A stretch of DNA of 23,345 nt, taken from positions 1 through 23,345 of the IMG/VR virus record IMGVR_UViG_3300043427_000802. The stretch is one strand, 5' to 3'. Below are positions 1 through 20,454 of the stretch, piece by piece; the stretch's first letter is position 1; the number at the start of each line of letters is the position of its first letter. The position numbers were made by a program, and so were the translations under genes. The stretch is from a virus. The notes below the pieces were generated by a model that was given only the letters and a program-made list of their open reading frames with translations, was not told the origin of the DNA and did no database searches.

Positions 1-1523
1 TTTTCTGCTTGCTTACGCTTAGCATAATCCATATAAGATTCGCCTGGTTTTAGTTGACCCTCAAAGACTTGAGTTTCTTCATTACGTACTGAAGCAAGTA
101 AATCATCTAACTTACTAGACTTCTTTTTCTTAGCAGGTGCTTTTGCCTTTGGTTTTGCAGTTGCTTTTGGTGCAGATGCTTTTGGTGCAGATACTTTTTT
201 AGTTGCTGCCTTTGCTTTCGGTGGAGTTGTTGCACTACCTTCCCAAGGATCAGAAGGTTTTTCAGCTTTCTTTGGTGCTGCTTTTGGTGATTCTACTTTT
301 TTAGTCTCTCCACCTTCCATCTTGCGAGCAACATTTCTCGCTCCTCTAGAAACTGATCTTGCACCACTTGCGACTGCTTTTCTAAGTCCACTCTTTAGTT
401 TGGAACCAATTCTGGAAAGCAATCCTGGACGCTTCTCTGAACTAGAAGATGTAGAGGAACTTGAAGATGATCCCGAACCTGAAGAAGAACCACCTTTTCC
501 TCTTTCATATCCTTTTCCAAACTCTCTTTTAACTGCTCTTGCTCCTCTTACAGCAGCACCAGCAGCATAACCAGCACCACGAGCAACAGCACCACCAACT
601 TTCTTAACAGCAGTTTTTACTTTTTCAACTCTATCACTTTTGATTTTAGTATCATGGCCTAAAGTAACTTTTGCTTCATTTAGTAAGTCAGTAGAAAAAT
701 CAAGAGATTCAATCAATAAATCTTCAACTTCTTCTACATCGTATCCCTCCTCAAGACACTCATAGAAGAACTCTTCAACAACTTCTTCAATTAAAGAATC
801 TGAAAGAAGCACGAGTTCATTATCAGTAAACTCATCAAGAACTCCAGAAACTTCAACCATTTCAAGAAGAGTTCCGCCAATCTCCTCAACTGTTTCAGTC
901 AGTTTAGGATTGATCGTGATTTTATTTTCTACCTTCTTTTCTTTAATCTTTTTGTTTGCTTCAACATCATCCATAACTTCAGAAAGATCTTGTCTCCAAT
1001 TAGAGAAACCCTCTTTCATTCCCTTCTTCTGAGAGATTGCTTTTCCAATTGCCTTACGACGTTTATGGAGATACTTATCAGACTTATCACTATCCCCATC
1101 ATTATCAATATCAGCATCCTCTTGGCCTACTGGATCCAATGCTTCCTTAGTTACCAATCCAACAACGTTCTTGTTTTTCTTAGTAACTTTATCCATAAAA
1201 GCAATACTTTGCTTTTGTTGATTTGCATAATCTTTTCCTTTAGAAGGAGAAAGTCTCTTATCACCAGTCTTTCTTTCAGCAGATGCTGCTCTTCTCATTT
1301 CAGGATCAGAACCTTTTACTGCTTCATCTATTTCAGACTCTTCTTTAATTTTATTCTTTTCTCTCATTGCCTTTGCTTTTGCAAGAGTTCTTTCTCTTGC
1401 AGCATCTTGCTCAGACTTTGGAATAGCAGTTACAGCACCAAGACGCTCTGCAGGTTTACCGGGAACTGCAGATTCAGCAATGTTCTCCAAGTAAACCTTA
1501 GAGAGATCGTTAAGATGAGTCAT
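1..1523 (-). CDS. Large virion/prohead-precursor-like protein, 3' end beyond window (partial)
   Basis: Open frame from ATG at 1523 with no stop before the window edge, about 507 codons seen. The N-terminus reads MTHLNDLSKVYLENIAES, with an IAE tripeptide at residues 15-17 that fits the T4 gp21 prohead-protease consensus (I/L-x-E). Residues 138-149 form a full EF-hand/dockerin-type loop (Asp at loop positions 1, 3, 5, 7, 9 and 12, Gly at 6), followed by a basic helix. Residues about 205-285 are acidic and helical. Then come a Gly/Ala/Arg stretch, a Ser-rich linker (about 346-362) and a Lys/Ala/Pro-rich tail (about 410-475) with repeated APKAS/APKAT units. I recognise no enzyme domain. Proteins of this style in T4-like marine phages are usually annotated as virion structural. 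The late-promoter box just upstream and the neighbouring putative capsid-targeted gene support a structural or prohead-core role, which is inference. Confidence 0.8.
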   Translation of the reverse strand, partial: MTHLNDLSKVYLENIAESAVPGKPAERLGAVTAIPKSEQDAARERTLAKAKAMREKNKIKEESEIDEAVKGSDPEMRRAASAERKTGDKRLSPSKGKDYANQQKQSIAFMDKVTKKNKNVVGLVTKEALDPVGQEDADIDNDGDSDKSDKYLHKRRKAIGKAISQKKGMKEGFSNWRQDLSEVMDDVEANKKIKEKKVENKITINPKLTETVEEIGGTLLEMVEVSGVLDEFTDNELVLLSDSLIEEVVEEFFYECLEEGYDVEEVEDLLIESLDFSTDLLNEAKVTLGHDTKIKSDRVEKVKTAVKKVGGAVARGAGYAAGAAVRGARAVKREFGKGYERGKGGSSSGSGSSSSSSTSSSSEKRPGLLSRIGSKLKSGLRKAVASGARSVSRGARNVARKMEGGETKKVESPKAAPKKAEKPSDPWEGSATTPPKAKAATKKVSAPKASAPKATAKPKAKAPAKKKKSSKLDDLLASVRNEETQVFEGQLKPGESYMDYAKRKQAE

Positions 1524-1534
1524 GAGTATAAGTT

Positions 1535-2827
1535 TTACTTTTTAACCTTATATTTATTTATGAATTCCTTAATTTGTTTATATCCACTATAAGGTTTTGC
1601 TCCATACTGTAGATTTGTTTTGTCTCCTTTTTCAAATCCAGGAGTCATATCAACGGCATGTTTAAAATATCCACCTGTTCCAACGAGTGTGTTTGGTTTC
1701 CCAGGAGCTCTCATTTTCTTTTCAACCTTCACTTCAGTATATTCCATCACGTCTCTTATCCATGATTTGAACATACACTCTTCTTCAGTAACACAAATCA
1801 GGTAGTTTGTTCCTCTACGAATAATCTTCCCTACAAGACCAGTGTTTAAGTTCTCTACAATATCACCAATTCTAAAAATTTTTCCTTTCAGATAATTTTC
1901 ACGAAGAGTTTCTACATCATACTTTGGAGCAATCTGCCAAAGTTCTGCAACCTCTTTTTTCTTTTTCTTTGCACCCATTCCTTGACGAACTGCATCAAAG
2001 AGTGCTTGCGTATCACCATCATCAAGTGTCTTTGGTGTTCCTCTACGGAATGATTTAAAGTCATCATCAATAACTGCTTTTCTCATTTTGGATGCAGACA
2101 TTCCTTCTACACCCTCTGCATCAGCATCACGAACACCAGCAGAAATTACACGAATCAAATCAAAGTTATAAAGATCTCCATTGTATTTTTGAGCTAAGTT
2201 TTCAAATTCTGCTTGACGATCAGAACCCACAACAATATTAACATTTACATATCCCGATTCTGCGGCTGCAATCAATACATTAAATATCGATTTCATTTCA
2301 TCATCATTAATAATGTTCTCTTTAAAATCAGGGAACATCTTCTTCATAAACGAAATCTTCATATCAGGGTCTAATGGATTCTTTTTGGGATCCTGAGTTC
2401 TTGAAGGATAGATCTTAAGATCTCCATCAGTTGCTGCTTTTCTTGCAGCCTTTAATAGTTTCTCATGTCCTACTGTTGGGGGATTAAAACGACCAAATGC
2501 AACTGTTAAAGTATCACTACCAGTATCAACACCACCAGTTGGAGGTGCTGCTTTTGCTGGTGCTTTTGGTACTGGTTCTGCTTTTGGTTTTGCTGCTTTT
2601 TTTTCTGGTGCTGGTGATTTTCCTACTGCATCTTTTGGTTGATCTTTTCCACCTTCTACTCTACCTTTATCATAAAATACTAGTTTCCCCTTTTCTGTTT
2701 TCGCAACAAATTCTCCACGACTGTCCAACCAACCGCCATGGCCATCACTCTTGAGATTTAACTTCTTCGCTTGCAGTGATGCTTGCGTTTGAGTTGCCTC
2801 ATTTAGAAATTGGAAAAAACTCTTCAT
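1535..2827 (-). CDS. Nucleotidyltransferase-like protein with capsid-targeting-like N-terminus and SH3/KOW-like C-terminal domain
   Basis: 430 aa. Residues 1-11 read MKSFFQFLNEA, closely resembling the T4 internal-protein capsid-targeting sequence MKTYQEFIAEA; LNE at 8-10 fits gp21 cleavage after Glu10. A basic Lys/Ala/Pro linker (about 65-100) leads to a nucleotidylyltransferase core of the HxGH superfamily: GRFNPPTVGHEKLL carries TVGH in place of HxGH, and GMSASKMRKA corresponds to the ISSTKIR-type motif. The family transfers a nucleotidyl group (NMNAT, cytidylyltransferases), but the substrate here is unknown. A segment beginning FRIGDIVENLNTGLVGKIIRRG resembles an SH3/KOW-like beta barrel. 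It has its own late-promoter box and lies between virion-like genes. The fold call is fairly firm; packaging into the head is inference. Confidence 0.82.
   Translation of the reverse strand: MKSFFQFLNEATQTQASLQAKKLNLKSDGHGGWLDSRGEFVAKTEKGKLVFYDKGRVEGGKDQPKDAVGKSPAPEKKAAKPKAEPVPKAPAKAAPPTGGVDTGSDTLTVAFGRFNPPTVGHEKLLKAARKAATDGDLKIYPSRTQDPKKNPLDPDMKISFMKKMFPDFKENIINDDEMKSIFNVLIAAAESGYVNVNIVVGSDRQAEFENLAQKYNGDLYNFDLIRVISAGVRDADAEGVEGMSASKMRKAVIDDDFKSFRRGTPKTLDDGDTQALFDAVRQGMGAKKKKKEVAELWQIAPKYDVETLRENYLKGKIFRIGDIVENLNTGLVGKIIRRGTNYLICVTEEECMFKSWIRDVMEYTEVKVEKKMRAPGKPNTLVGTGGYFKHAVDMTPGFEKGDKTNLQYGAKPYSGYKQIKEFINKYKVKK
1551..1557 (-). promoter_or_regulatory. T4-type late promoter box (ATAAATA)
   Basis: Minus-strand ATAAATA 28 nt upstream of the ATG at 1523, inside the last codons of the nucleotidyltransferase gene. 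It matches the late -10 element used by T4-like phages (TATAAATA in T4, NATAAATA in cyanophages). No -35 is expected for this class. Confidence 0.5.
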
Positions 2828-2847: not shown

Positions 2848-2854
2848 TATTTAT
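2848..2854 (-). promoter_or_regulatory. T4-type late promoter box (ATAAATA)
   Basis: Minus-strand ATAAATA 20 nt upstream of the nucleotidyltransferase ATG (2827), touching the stop codon of the upstream gene. The spacing allows a very short leader. Confidence 0.55.
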
Positions 2855-4164
2855 TAAATGCCAGTATCACCTATTTTTATTAAATCTTTAAATTCTGGAG
2901 TAATGCCAGCAAAAAATTGTGGGAAGGCTGCAAAATCTCCCTTATATCTCAATTCAATATCCAAAACAGGAGTATCTCCTTTCGATAAAGTAAAGAAAAC
3001 TTTAGCTGCATTTTTAGATAAAGTTTTTTGTTTATCTAAAACCATCTTGGTTTCTTGTCTTGATAGTTTTGCCATGGCTATCATAATACTATGAACATTT
3101 AGAACATTTGCACTTCCAATATTAGGTGATAGGTTTTTGTCTACAGTACCAACACCCTCTGTTAAATAAAATCCAAATTCATACTCATCCCAAGTGTCTA
3201 AAACATCTAGTAAATTGAGTTTTAACACTCTAGTCAGTAAAACATCAGCAAGATTATCTTTTACATCTTCCTGATTCATAATATCAAGAAAACCTTGATA
3301 AAGTGGATTTAGTGTATTACCAGTACTTTGAAGTTTCTTATTTACAAAATCTCTAAAACTTTCCTGAGATGGATCGTTTCCAGATTGTTTAATTAAACCA
3401 TTTGGATCTTTTAAATCAGATTCCGATTTTAAATTAATTAAAGGAATTGGTTTTCCATCTTTCTTCCTAATAACACGCATATCCCACAAAGCTTTTGCAT
3501 CTGCTTTATTATTTGGATTCAAACTAGAAATTTTTTTATTTCCGGAGAGTGCAAATCTTTCTAATGGACCACCAGGACCACAAGCTTCTTTAATTACTCC
3601 AGCAAAAAATTTAATTCTATGATCATTCAGTTTATCTCTTGTTGATTTAAACTGAGGTCCTTCAATGTACGCAGAGAATGCATTATTAATTAATGTAGGA
3701 CTTGCTGAATTTGCTTTTGGTTTCTTTTTTAAAGAAATTCCAACAAAATCATTACCATTTAGTTTTAAAATAACATCAGATGAATTATAATCAGACATTC
3801 CAAATGCTTTAACTTTAAAAGGTTCAACATCAGGATGCCATTTATTGCCGGTAAGATATACTTTTGATGGAATCTTATCTTTTTTAAGTTTTTGTCTAGT
3901 TCCCAAAACTGCAGATATTGATGCAGCAAGATCTCCATAAATGTCTTGTGGACTTTTTGAAGATGTATCAAGATCAATAATTTTGATCATTCCATTTTTT
4001 GTAGCATTTCCTGCAGCATCTAAAACTTTATTGCTCTTCAAATTTTCAAGAGCAATAAAGTATAGTTGTTTAAACTTATCAGTATCATTTTTTGCTGCAT
4101 TCAAATCCGCAGTTGGTACGAATGATAAACCAGCATATAATCCTTCCGATGGTTCAAATGCCAT
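2854..4164 (-). CDS. Conserved-looking protein of unknown function, possible PD-(D/E)xK-like core
   Basis: 436 aa, starting MAFEPSEGLYAGLSF. I do not recognise the family with confidence. Residues 128-148 contain Asp130 followed, after a beta-strand-like stretch, by VGISLKKK, which resembles a nuclease-type D...(x)xK arrangement. The residue before xK is Ser rather than Asp/Glu, so catalysis is doubtful. PTLINNAF follows. The rest is mixed alpha/beta, and the C-terminus (DTPVLDIELRYKGDF) is strand-rich. There is no signal peptide or membrane segment. The ATG follows the tRNA-Ala gene and a short hairpin, with no clear Shine-Dalgarno. Its place between virion-like genes suggests late expression. 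A nuclease role would be speculation. Confidence 0.72.
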   Translation of the reverse strand: MAFEPSEGLYAGLSFVPTADLNAAKNDTDKFKQLYFIALENLKSNKVLDAAGNATKNGMIKIIDLDTSSKSPQDIYGDLAASISAVLGTRQKLKKDKIPSKVYLTGNKWHPDVEPFKVKAFGMSDYNSSDVILKLNGNDFVGISLKKKPKANSASPTLINNAFSAYIEGPQFKSTRDKLNDHRIKFFAGVIKEACGPGGPLERFALSGNKKISSLNPNNKADAKALWDMRVIRKKDGKPIPLINLKSESDLKDPNGLIKQSGNDPSQESFRDFVNKKLQSTGNTLNPLYQGFLDIMNQEDVKDNLADVLLTRVLKLNLLDVLDTWDEYEFGFYLTEGVGTVDKNLSPNIGSANVLNVHSIMIAMAKLSRQETKMVLDKQKTLSKNAAKVFFTLSKGDTPVLDIELRYKGDFAAFPQFFAGITPEFKDLIKIGDTGI

Positions 4165-4334: not shown

Positions 4335-4341
4335 TATTTAT
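4335..4341 (-). promoter_or_regulatory. Possible late promoter box (ATAAATA)
   Basis: Minus-strand ATAAATA starting at the last base of the stop codon of the 325-aa gene. It could serve the tRNA and the 436-aa gene, but transcripts would first cross the hairpin at 4316-4288. Confidence 0.35.
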
Positions 4342-5318
4342 CAGTCTTCATATCTAGTGTTTGGAACTGATTTACCTGCTCTCCTTGCTGCCTTATTTCC
4401 TGCTCCTCTATCTCTAGTTGGACCAGCATTTCCAGCCCAATATGCTGCGTTTTTAGCACGATTAGGACCTTTTCCAACTCTCTCGTCAGCAGGAGCATTC
4501 GTCCCACCACGCTTTCTTACCGGATTATCTTTTGATCCAGTTTCATCTCTTTTTATAAGAAGACCAAATGCCTGGTCTCCTGTTTTTGTATGATACTTCT
4601 TACGTGGATTTTGTCCTTTTGACTTATCACCTTTTACAACTTCTCTGTCCATAATCGCACGAAGTTTCTTTCTACTTTCAGGATTTCTGATTGCCTCATC
4701 AAGTTTCTCTTCTTTATCATCTTCTTCTTTTTCTTTCTTACTCTTCTTTCCCTTTTTCATTTCTTCCTCATCATCTTCATCTTCATCTTCATGCATCGCT
4801 TCAAGGATAATATCAATCACTTCTTTATCAAGAAGATTTGCCATCATCCACTGTGCTTCTTCCAGAGTTTCTGCATATCCTTCTGCTTGGAGGAACTCAA
4901 GAACTACATCAAAGATATCAAACTCTTCTCTATTAAGTTGCTTCTTCTCATTAGGAGTTAGAGCGCCTCTTTGTGCTCCTCTTGCTGCCTGCTTTGCCTT
5001 TACCTTAGGATCATCAGACTTGTGAGTATAACCATGAAGACCAGGAGAGGAAGAAGTAGTCTTACGGAAATCACCTCTTTGCTTTCTAGCAAGGTCTTGC
5101 CTTTGCTTTGCCTTTTTAGCATCACCGAAAGTTGATTTCTTCTCTAGTGCAGATGCTCTATCTGCAGCTTCACCACCACCAGTTGACTTAGCAATCTTTT
5201 GGCGAATAGGTGCTTCATCATAACCACGCTTTGCCATTGCAGTTGCTTCATCAACTTCTTGTGGAGCATTAATCTGCTGATATGCTTCCACCAATCCTCT
5301 AAGATCTTTGATATCCAT
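4341..5318 (-). CDS. Charged virion/prohead-like protein of unknown function
   Basis: 325 aa. The N-terminus MDIKDLRGLVEAYQQ holds LVE followed by Ala at residues 9-12, a fit to gp21-type (I/L)xE cleavage; a second LDE-Ala site lies near residue 207. Residues about 134-170 are helical and acidic (LEFLQAEGYAETLEEAQW). About 170-205 is a dense Glu/Asp/Lys block, and the C-terminal 80 residues are basic and Gly/Asn/Arg-rich, ending NTRYED. The acidic helical segment resembles one in the protein that runs off the left edge, which suggests a shared class. No enzyme motif is seen. It has a consensus late promoter, and its leader directly follows the module-ending terminator. The structural or prohead-core call is inference. 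Confidence 0.78.
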   Translation of the reverse strand: MDIKDLRGLVEAYQQINAPQEVDEATAMAKRGYDEAPIRQKIAKSTGGGEAADRASALEKKSTFGDAKKAKQRQDLARKQRGDFRKTTSSSPGLHGYTHKSDDPKVKAKQAARGAQRGALTPNEKKQLNREEFDIFDVVLEFLQAEGYAETLEEAQWMMANLLDKEVIDIILEAMHEDEDEDDEEEMKKGKKSKKEKEEDDKEEKLDEAIRNPESRKKLRAIMDREVVKGDKSKGQNPRKKYHTKTGDQAFGLLIKRDETGSKDNPVRKRGGTNAPADERVGKGPNRAKNAAYWAGNAGPTRDRGAGNKAARRAGKSVPNTRYED

Positions 5319-13971: not shown

Positions 13972-14336
13972 TTTTTTCCTCCAATGTCAAGTCGTTGTTT
14001 GATGAAAGTTATTTGTTCTGGTGTTAGGATTTTCAGTGCTTGAGATGCTTTTTCATTACTATAACCATAGTATTGCTTTATACATTCTAAGTCCGTGATT
14101 TTATCCTTACGGAGCCAGGGAGAAAATCTCTTCCGTTTCCTAAGACTATTTAGATAAAACGAATATTGCATGTCCTTATCGAGTTGATGATGCATATTCA
14201 TTTCATTTGCATACATCACACAATCAATATGTCCAGATAAACAACGATTAATAATGTATGGTGGATAAGATTTAATATTTTCGGATAAATCCTCCTTTGT
14301 GTGGTTGATTGAATTCAACCAATCTTTTAATTCCAT
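13968..14336 (-). CDS. 62: gp62 clamp loader small subunit
   Basis: 122 aa. Recognised by YPPYIINRCLS, MYANEMNMHHQLDKDMQY, LRKRKRFSPWL and IKQYYGYSNEKASQAL, which parallel T4 gp62. One gp62 joins four gp44 subunits to load the gp45 clamp. It is shorter than T4 gp62 (187 aa), as usual in cyanophages. Unlike T4, it is separated from gene 44 by the DruA-like gene. It begins at a TAATG junction with that gene. Confidence 0.92.
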   Translation of the reverse strand: MELKDWLNSINHTKEDLSENIKSYPPYIINRCLSGHIDCVMYANEMNMHHQLDKDMQYSFYLNSLRKRKRFSPWLRKDKITDLECIKQYYGYSNEKASQALKILTPEQITFIKQRLDIGGKK

Positions 14337-15493
14337 TATCTAATAATTTGAATTTCGTCATCATCAGTCCAGAGTTCGACCTTCGTTCTGAACCTATTTT
14401 CTTCTTTCAGTTTTTCATATCTTTTTGCGGCTTTCTTTTTCCACCAAGAGATAATATTTTCCAAATAGAACTTATCCCAGTTTGGACCACGAACTAATTC
14501 TGTATGTTGACCAAGAATAACTTCGCGGACATTTGAATAACCATATTCACAAAAATATGTTCTCTTCTTTTGTGTAAGATCAAATGCAGCATCAATCACA
14601 GAATTGAATTCCTGCAACTTTTCATTCTGACCACACTCTTTCAAAGAATTTCTAATAATAGAAATCATTTTTGTTTGCCGCTTCATTTTTTTAGATGAAG
14701 CCTTATTATCAGTTAATGGCGTATTATTGTTTAAGAGAGTAAACCTATCATGAAGTTTATGAAATACTTCATCATGAAGAAGAGGAAGAAACTTACTTTC
14801 GGTTAAACCTTTATATCTCATGAATGGTTTGAGACCATCATACTGAGAGGCATCGGTAGTTGAACCATAAAGAGATGTTGTCTCAAAAAGAGCAATATCC
14901 TTTTCAAAGACTTCATTCAAAGTCTCACGAGCAAAATGAGAGCAACACAGAAGAGCAAGAAGTTTACCACCAAGATAATTGTATCCAAATGGTTGAGATG
15001 GAACGATCACAAATCCCATCGCAGCATGACGATTGAAGATTGAAAGATTTGGAGTTATAGATATTGGATTTCCTTTTTCATCAGTTTTTCCATCAGCTAG
15101 CCAAAGATTTCTTGGTTTTGAATTAATAGTAGGAGAACCAAAACGAATAAATCCAAGAACTTTTTGTGTATTTTTTTCAAATACCATCCAACGAAGTTCT
15201 CTACCTGGAATATTACTTTCATTGTTATGAGAGGAAACGACTCTCAACAAAGTGTTGTAATGTTCCTGTGGAATACTCTTAAAACGATCTCCAACAAACT
15301 TGATTTCAAACTCCATCTCTTCTGGATGAATATCCTCATTGAAGAACTCTTCATGCAAAGGGGCAAGAGTATTTGTGGACTTAATAACCTCTTTCTTCAC
15401 AAAACGCAAGTAGTCCTCAATATTTCCCATTTGAGAGAAATACTTGACAAACTCATCTGCAGCCCACTGAGCATCTTGTTCAGAAATAATCAT
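14336..15493 (-). CDS. DruA/DUF4338-like protein inserted between genes 44 and 62
   Basis: 385 aa. Residues about 98-235 follow the pattern of the DUF4338 (Druantia DruA) family: GRELRWMVFE, KVLGFIRFGSP, LWLADG, SIFNRHAAMGFVIVP, then LFETTSLYGSTTDASQYDG and MRYKGLTES. The match is by pattern, not a search. Biochemical activity of the family is not clear to me; DruA is a component of bacterial Druantia anti-phage systems. The C-terminal 150 residues are Lys-rich and include WWKKKAAKRYEKLKEENR, suggesting nucleic-acid contact. It is coupled to gene 44 (ATGA) and to gene 62 (TAATG), so it should be made at clamp-loader levels. It may instead be a replication accessory. Confidence 0.7.
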   Translation of the reverse strand: MIISEQDAQWAADEFVKYFSQMGNIEDYLRFVKKEVIKSTNTLAPLHEEFFNEDIHPEEMEFEIKFVGDRFKSIPQEHYNTLLRVVSSHNNESNIPGRELRWMVFEKNTQKVLGFIRFGSPTINSKPRNLWLADGKTDEKGNPISITPNLSIFNRHAAMGFVIVPSQPFGYNYLGGKLLALLCCSHFARETLNEVFEKDIALFETTSLYGSTTDASQYDGLKPFMRYKGLTESKFLPLLHDEVFHKLHDRFTLLNNNTPLTDNKASSKKMKRQTKMISIIRNSLKECGQNEKLQEFNSVIDAAFDLTQKKRTYFCEYGYSNVREVILGQHTELVRGPNWDKFYLENIISWWKKKAAKRYEKLKEENRFRTKVELWTDDDEIQIIR

Positions 15494-20115: not shown

Positions 20116-20454
20116 CTAATTAAGTTCTCCCATTGCTTTTTGCTTACGAATCTTCTTAGGATTCTTCGTCTTGTCTGCAGAGTAGTTATTATCATTATCA
20201 TCATCTGGGTCTACAGCACTACGATGTCTTGTGCGTCTTTCTTCATCATCAATCTTTGCACGACTTCTTTTTGCTTCATCAGGAGAATAGGTTCTACCAC
20301 TGTTGTACCATTCTTTACCAACATGACCTCTCTTCTTAGCATCAGCAGAAGCTTCTCTACGTTTGAGTTTTCTGCGATTTGCTTTGAAATCTTTGAGAGT
20401 CATTCCCTCTTCAATAGCGTATGCTTCGGTGATAAATTCTTGAAATGTCTTCAT
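20116..20454 (-). CDS. Internal-protein-like protein with capsid-targeting N-terminus
   Basis: 112 aa. Residues 1-11 read MKTFQEFITEA, identical at 9 of 11 positions to the T4 IPII/IPIII capsid-targeting sequence MKTYQEFIAEA; ITE at 8-10 fits gp21 cleavage after Glu10. The rest is highly charged (Lys/Arg/Glu/Asp, e.g. RRKLKRREASADAKKRG; VDPDDDNDNN) and probably disordered. In T4 such proteins are packed into the prohead, trimmed and injected with the DNA. It starts within the stop of the CobT-like gene (ATGA), so the two are coupled. Packaging is inferred from the N-terminus; the body gives no function. Confidence 0.75.
   Translation of the reverse strand: MKTFQEFITEAYAIEEGMTLKDFKANRRKLKRREASADAKKRGHVGKEWYNSGRTYSPDEAKRSRAKIDDEERRTRHRSAVDPDDDNDNNYSADKTKNPKKIRKQKAMGELN

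Follow-up and report, generated by a model that had tools for sequence, protein, structure and literature searches.

The window analysed here is a 23-kb IMG/VR fragment (23,345 nucleotides) from a T4-like cyanophage. Its minus strand encodes mazG, gp41, uvsX, gp43, regA and gp44-type genes, some of them named through synteny with S-SM2. Our analysis centred on a nucleotidyltransferase gene with the following features and surroundings:

1..1523, minus strand: neighbouring gene extending beyond the window, homologous to S-SCSM1 ORF92 (34% identity, E=9e-28)
1535..2827, minus strand: nucleotidyltransferase gene of phrog_395 / cyanophage T4-GC190, 430 aa, ATG start
1742..1915, minus strand: SH3-like beta domain, residues 305-362 (AlphaFold2 strands; phrog_4808 match)
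1973..2515, minus strand: nucleotidyltransferase domain, residues 105-285 (AlphaFold2 pLDDT ~93; Foldseek)
2081..2098, minus strand: SASKMR, residues 244-249, C-terminal nucleotide-binding motif of the ISxTxxR type (no variation at S244 or R249 across 72 homologues)
2465..2482, minus strand: PPTVGH, residues 116-121, (T/H)xGH catalytic motif (G120 and H121 the same in all 72 homologues)
2516..2662, minus strand: low-complexity linker, residues 56-104, predicted disordered (pLDDT <50 at 56-86 and 89-100; least conserved)
2663..2794, minus strand: DGHG mini-domain, residues 12-55, xxAxxLxLxSDGHGxWxDxxGxxVAKTxxGKLxF (AlphaFold2 pLDDT ~90; compact over 12-51)
2798..2827, minus strand: capsid-targeting-type N-terminus, residues 1-10, MKSFFQFLNE (predicted gp21 cut E10/A11, between 2798 and 2797)
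2848..2854, minus strand: ATAAATA, an element resembling a T4-type late promoter, which starts 27 nt ahead of the nucleotidyltransferase start codon (ATG)
4341..5318, minus strand: neighbouring gene, homologue of S-SCSM1 ORF89 (30% identity, E=1e-13)

The gene product matched the profile of phrog_395, named 'cytidyltransferase', over its catalytic domain (E=3e-103), and more weakly phrog_4808 (C-terminal domain) and the N-terminus of phrog_3561, a 934-aa family with no assigned function. Homologues were found in 536 phage records, chiefly of Synechococcus and Prochlorococcus phages. The family gene is labelled T4-GC190 in the S-SM2 and P-SSM2 records, and T4-GC190 was described as a core gene of cyanophages (PMC3037559). 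It is syntenic between mazG and primase/nrdA, with the mazG side visible in the window and the full order in S-SM2 and S-SCSM1. Profile and synteny thus both placed the gene among the phrog_395 / T4-GC190 nucleotidyltransferases. ORF89 and ORF92 of S-SCSM1, the homologues of the two listed neighbours, are virion proteins detected by mass spectrometry (MS) according to the S-SCSM1 annotation. An assignment of the gene at 2854-4164 to S-SCSM1 ORF90 was rejected, as blastp gave no match.

The original prediction, made from the sequence alone, had read residues 1-11 (MKSFFQFLNEA) as a mimic of the T4 capsid-targeting sequence with a gp21-type (I/L)xE tripeptide at 8-10. Both parts were confirmed. 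The tripeptide is present, and L8-N9-E10/A11 is the sole [ILV]xE[AS] site in the 430-aa protein; bare [IL]xE occurs at positions 8, 308, 323 and 419. Homologues were gathered with a catalytic-core query from which the N-terminus was excluded, so the tag was not selected for; an initial whole-protein scan with MKSFFQFL as one pattern was biased and was replaced by these core queries. In two core-only homologue sets the N-terminal motif occurred in 76/80 and 77/80 ORFs (153/160 in total), against a background of 158 in 87,720 windows (0.18%) elsewhere in the same proteins. The seven ORFs without the motif included two truncated contigs and four near-variants, e.g. MKTFINFIESLA. With the S-CREM2 enzyme as query, a third core-only search, a small one, gave the motif in 0/6 sequences; five of these were short, distant proteins beginning with MD and the other was a near-variant (MKNFGAFFEEA). 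Marine homologues with 40-45% identity, and an N-terminus of only ~17 residues, kept the tag (MKVKNFSDYIVEASKEI, MIKNFSQYLVEEEREV, MKVNSFKAYLKEDSGEV), as did homologues missing the DGHG module and linker, such as MKVKNFSDYIVEASKEI. A strict tag scan found the nucleotidyltransferase in all cyanophage genomes scanned (Syn9, S-SM2, S-H34, P-SSM2, S-SCSM1 and S-CREM2) and recovered IPII, IPIII and gp24 from T4 as positive control.

In an alignment of 72 sequences (effective number 44) the tag was conserved about as strongly as the catalytic domain (2.90 and 2.92 bits per column, versus 1.17 for the linker). Residues 1-11 did not vary freely. Constraint was found at position 4 (F, 98%), 7 (F/Y, 100%), 8 (mostly L/I, also M/V/F) and 10 (E, 98%), while positions 5, 6 and 9 were variable. 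Joint conservation of the tag with the TVGH and SASKMR motifs had been suggested as a check; in the 72 homologues, G120, H121, S244 and R249 were invariant. Residues 4-11 were modelled as a helix by AlphaFold2.

The pattern of constrained and free positions is that of T4 IPIII, for which genetics assigned residues 4 and 7 to targeting and residues 8 and 10 to processing (PMC9026906). In T4 the capsid tag serves injected proteins (PMC9026906). The window protein combines a putative propeptide of ~10 residues with hydrophobic/aromatic residues at 4 and 7, L/I at 8 and E at 10, and resembles T4 IPI, IPII and IPIII in tag length, N-terminal placement, the constrained positions 4, 7, 8 and 10 and the (L/I)xE/A form. 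It differs from them in having as cargo a 430-aa enzyme, encoded by a cyanophage-type genome, in the DGHG mini-domain and linker that follow the tag, and in that its cleavage is predicted only. The FLxE/A form of the cut is also common to major capsid proteins (T4 gp23 GSFLTE/AE, S-SCSM1 GSFLAE/AP). T4 Alt, a head-packaged and injected ADP-ribosyltransferase, shares an enzyme cargo, an N-terminal gp21 propeptide and nucleotide/NAD-related chemistry; its propeptide, however, has 7 residues, and it consumes NAD+ in modifying proteins, whereas the fold of the window protein would build a dinucleotide from a small metabolite.

A second tagged protein of the window (20116..20454, minus strand, 112 aa) starts with MKTFQEFITEA, which differs little from the IPII/IPIII tag of T4 (MKTYQEFIAEA) and is closer to it than MKSFFQFLNEA is. 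It showed weak N-terminal matches to the internal head proteins phrog_8765/2667 and is probably a basic internal head protein. In T4 itself, a 54-aa ORF (L099:18966-19130, minus strand; MKTFKEFIKED) also matches the tag pattern.

The virion association of the family is already published (S-SM1, 2010), and its virion presence is known through orthologues in published MS rather than from particles of the window phage itself. The family is not absent from purified virions, as orthologues were MS-detected in four phages: S-SM1 (T4-GC190 orthologue, PMC3037559), S-SCSM1 (ORF91, PMC9602691; 64% identical to the window protein), S-SZBM1 (S-SZBM1_140, 2 peptides, PMC9146016) and S-CREM2 (ORF154, 3 peptides, PMC10665884). 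NMNAT-like proteins were also reported from S-CBWM1 virions (PMC9602691). The window gene is thus comparable to these virion NMNAT/cytidylyltransferases (T4-GC190) of S-SM1, S-SCSM1, S-SZBM1 and S-CREM2 in orthology, genome position and virion presence of orthologues. All four detected T4-like orthologues carried the tag (MKKFSAFLNEA in S-SM1, MKSFLQFLKEA in S-SCSM1, MRFRQFIIEA in S-SZBM1 and MKNFSSFLTEA in S-CREM2). The S-PM2 homologue, a longer protein whose C-terminal end is formed by the enzyme domain, has no tag and was undetected in S-PM2 virions. This contrast is only suggestive of packaging following the tag, because the S-PM2 proteome was shallower and also missed seven T4-type structural proteins.

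The tag was also found on other proteins. Four of the 219 S-CREM2 proteins carried the strict tag, against 0.0045 expected from shuffled N-termini: besides the nucleotidyltransferase (gp154) these were a SAM lyase (gp6; Pfam S-AdoMet lyase, E=2e-19), the 78-aa gp13 and a kinase (gp14; sub-threshold kinase match in Pfam). All four were among the 52 proteins detected by MS (Fisher p=0.003). S-SCSM1 encoded a second strict-tag protein, the 106-aa ORF30, which was not marked as MS-detected, so the tag is an imperfect predictor of MS detection. Conservation at the T4 IPIII positions, the published MS of orthologues in virions and the tag on other virion-detected enzymes together strongly support the reading of the N-terminus as a T4-type capsid-targeting sequence.

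ATAAATA is the core of the T4 late promoter. It lies 27 nt upstream of the 4341-5318 gene as well, and was found upstream of 58/170 nucleotidyltransferase homologue genes, nearly always at 26-27 nt and mostly at exactly 27 nt. The motif alone was not rarer upstream of other ORFs (328/1107), so the constant spacing is the informative part. Within 70 nt of the 24 gene starts of the window, ATAAATA occurred only at 1535-2827, 4341-5318 and 1-1523, and at 0/20 genes outside this cluster (p=0.002, for a grouping chosen after seeing the data). The nucleotidyltransferase gene would accordingly be a candidate for late expression.

We consider it probable that the gene encodes a late-expressed nucleotidyltransferase that a T4-type capsid-targeting sequence directs into the phage head. 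Following this account, the gene would be transcribed late from the T4-type late promoter indicated by the motif, and residues 1-10, with their conserved IPIII-critical positions and the virion MS of orthologues, would dock the protein into the prohead core. The prohead protease gp21 would then cleave after E10 and leave a mature form starting at Ala11. The enzyme would be carried in the mature virion, as suggested by tagged orthologues in published MS, for which co-purification is named as an alternative in the S-SCSM1 and S-CREM2 papers, and by analogy with T4 Alt and the internal proteins it may enter the cell alongside the DNA. There it would act as an adenylyltransferase, as the fold suggests, on a small phosphate ester, most likely NMN/NaMN, and might support NAD(H) at the onset of infection, ahead of phage gene expression. 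The tag would also serve as the address of other cargo in marine T4-like phages, with DGHG as an optional second shared module.

Alternatively, the protein might be packaged without being an injected effector, as a component of the head core or of head maturation that stays in the capsid or is ejected incidentally. The surrounding gene cluster encodes virion proteins detected by MS (S-SCSM1 ORF89-92), and the cleavage motif is common to many T4 core proteins, both of which would suit such a role. We nevertheless regard it as unlikely: a structural filler would not need the catalytic motifs that are invariant in 72 homologues, T4 uses the tag for injected proteins (PMC9026906), and among the S-CREM2 proteins that share the tag are a kinase and what appears to be a SAM lyase. 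It is very unlikely that an ordinary intracellular enzyme merely co-purified with virions, its conserved N-terminus serving another use such as dimerisation. The authors of the S-SCSM1 and S-CREM2 studies raised co-purification, since CsCl preparations can hold abundant infection proteins (PMC9602691, PMC10665884), and the peptide counts were low (3 in S-CREM2, 2 in S-SZBM1); the predicted helix of the tag might also suit it. Detection was however reported for four independent phages with the tag present every time, the tag is also found on unrelated detected proteins (SAM lyase, kinase) and on the T4 internal proteins, and constraint is mainly at positions 4, 7, 8 and 10.

Regarding enzyme function, the original prediction of an HxGH-type nucleotidyltransferase core was right for the core fold (AlphaFold2, Foldseek); the motif in the window is T-V-G-H (118-121), a TxGH variant, and S-CREM2 and S-H34 have HxGH. 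Invariant in 72 homologues were GR..P..GH, KKNP, GxDR and S....R. The best PDB matches of the domain in Foldseek were NadM, NadD, NMNAT and PPAT (E ~1e-5), and CTP-type enzymes were not among the first 50. The nearest NCBIfam models were NadD, NadR and CoaD, besides the generic adenylyl/cytidyltransferase TIGR00125, all far below cut-off; for the NMN/NaMN adenylyltransferase families, TIGR00482 scored 14.8 bits (cut-off 112) and TIGR01526 13.2 bits (cut-off 341). An HMM search against PDB sequences gave nothing significant. Based on the fold matches, the invariant residues and the nearest NCBIfam models, the enzyme, with its NMN/NaMN adenylyltransferase fold and its (T/H)xGH and SxxxxR motifs, is by predicted fold probably an adenylyltransferase of NMN/NaMN/phosphopantetheine type and its 'cytidyltransferase' name a misnomer; adenylyl transfer to a small phosphate ester, with an NMN-like one as first guess, appears more likely than cytidyl transfer. 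A true cytidylyltransferase, e.g. of glycerol-3-phosphate or choline-phosphate type acting on lipid/wall precursors, would agree with the database names and with a Pfam match to CTP_transf_like that is weak and below cut-off (E=0.013), but is highly improbable given that the first 50 fold matches were adenylyltransferases and that the specific NCBIfam near-misses were NadD, NadR and CoaD. The earlier suggestion of a host molecule as the target of the injected enzyme is probably mistaken if it referred to a macromolecule, as the fold matches act on small metabolites.

A NAMPT/NadV-type partner (PF04095) was absent from 8 cyanophage genomes carrying the family gene, with bacterial controls positive. 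A complete phage-encoded salvage pathway is therefore not indicated, and host NMN would be the source of substrate. The enzyme has the HIGH-type adenylyltransferase fold in common with the NadM/NadR/NMNAT enzymes that serve phage NAD+ salvage (Iyer et al. PMC9503650). It differs from them in that it has no Nudix or kinase domain, no NadV partner was found, and its sequence is far under the family cut-offs. Namat (NARP1) was rejected as a relative, since its core is Nampt-like and of a different fold.

The tag is missing from the homologues of S-PM2, P-HM2, S-WAM2, Klebsiella K64-1 and Pseudomonas Cassandra, so the family also has modes other than packaging. In a core-domain tree the S-PM2, P-HM2 and S-WAM2 proteins, all untagged, grouped in a single clade (95/91), and the jumbo-phage proteins, likewise untagged, were placed on long basal branches. 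From these placements the tag is a removable address, probably lost once among marine phages or gained after the jumbo-phage split, the root being uncertain with such long branches.

The C-terminal part of the protein had been described as an SH3/KOW-like domain, and the AlphaFold2 model does contain five short strands at 323-362; a confirming fold match was not obtained. In S-PM2 and S-WAM2 this beta domain is encoded as a separate small gene. Roughly one third of the weighted homologues lacked the DGHG mini-domain, which is thus an optional module. Elsewhere in the genomes scanned it occurred only in tagged or tag-like cluster C phage proteins, twice in a kinase (S-CREM2 and S-H34) and once in a large 'Cas9' protein, and in S-CREM2 both the DGHG-bearing kinase and this large protein were MS-detected. 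A Foldseek search of the module alone against the PDB gave no fold match. The large protein, S-CREM2 gp12 (L085:7704-10313), is annotated as CRISPR-Cas9 nuclease and has both RFASFMAEA and the DGHG module close to its N-terminus; the 'Cas9' label was unsupported, as zero Pfam domains were found.

We tentatively propose that marine T4-like phages might possess a general head-delivery system, in which one N-terminal tag loads varied enzymes (the nucleotidyltransferase, SAM lyase, kinase and the ligase-like KxDG protein DUF6267) for injection before gene expression, with DGHG sometimes a second sorting or core-binding element; the evidence for this leaves it somewhat short of likely. If true, the effector set of a phage would be readable from its protein N-termini. 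For S-CREM2, the tag would group three probable early effectors, namely a kinase, a nucleotidyltransferase and a SAM lyase that could blunt restriction. T4-like cyanophages, which are among the most abundant viruses of the sea, have this family as a core gene, and its virion presence has stood without a mechanism since 2010. The tag would explain the recurrent finding of this enzyme in purified virus particles, suggests delivery with the viral DNA and offers a testable sorting rule that predicts the exact mature N-terminus (Ala11) and which unannotated proteins are head cargo. In the open literature searched, we saw no mention of the targeting tag, of several enzymes having it in common or of the ~40-residue DGHG mini-domain. 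Within that literature, papers on the cyanophage virion enzymes do not describe the tag, its sharing with other cargo or tag-less lineages, and capsid targeting was tied to cyanophages only by a passing co-mention.

Several further proteins deserve mention. S-CREM2 gp6 (L085:3837-5081), the SAM lyase with tag MKDFDSFLEE that was found in virions by MS, looks like an injected anti-restriction enzyme. Candidate head cargo are a 573-aa tagged protein of P-SSM2 (169737-171458, L144:9737-11458; MKSLSQFIIET) and a 193-aa tagged protein of S-SM2 (49522-50103, L119:9522-10103; MKTLGQFLAEA), neither of which gave a Pfam or PHROG match. DUF6267 proteins adjoining the nucleotidyltransferase (L197:1347-2564 and many group-B loci) have tag-like N-termini (MENFSSYITEQ) and contain both KxDG (VKWDGAPA) and EGYVV/VKLVDR, features that point to a covalent nucleotidyltransferase of ligase type. 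As phrog_455 covers both DUF6267 and the nucleotidyltransferase, fusions of the two exist; a gain or loss of the DUF6267 tag in step with that of the nucleotidyltransferase was not borne out. In the window, the gene between gp62 and gp44 (14336-15493, minus strand) matched phrog_19197, of unassigned function, and, above cut-off, the Pfam family DruA (Druantia protein DruA, E=1e-7).
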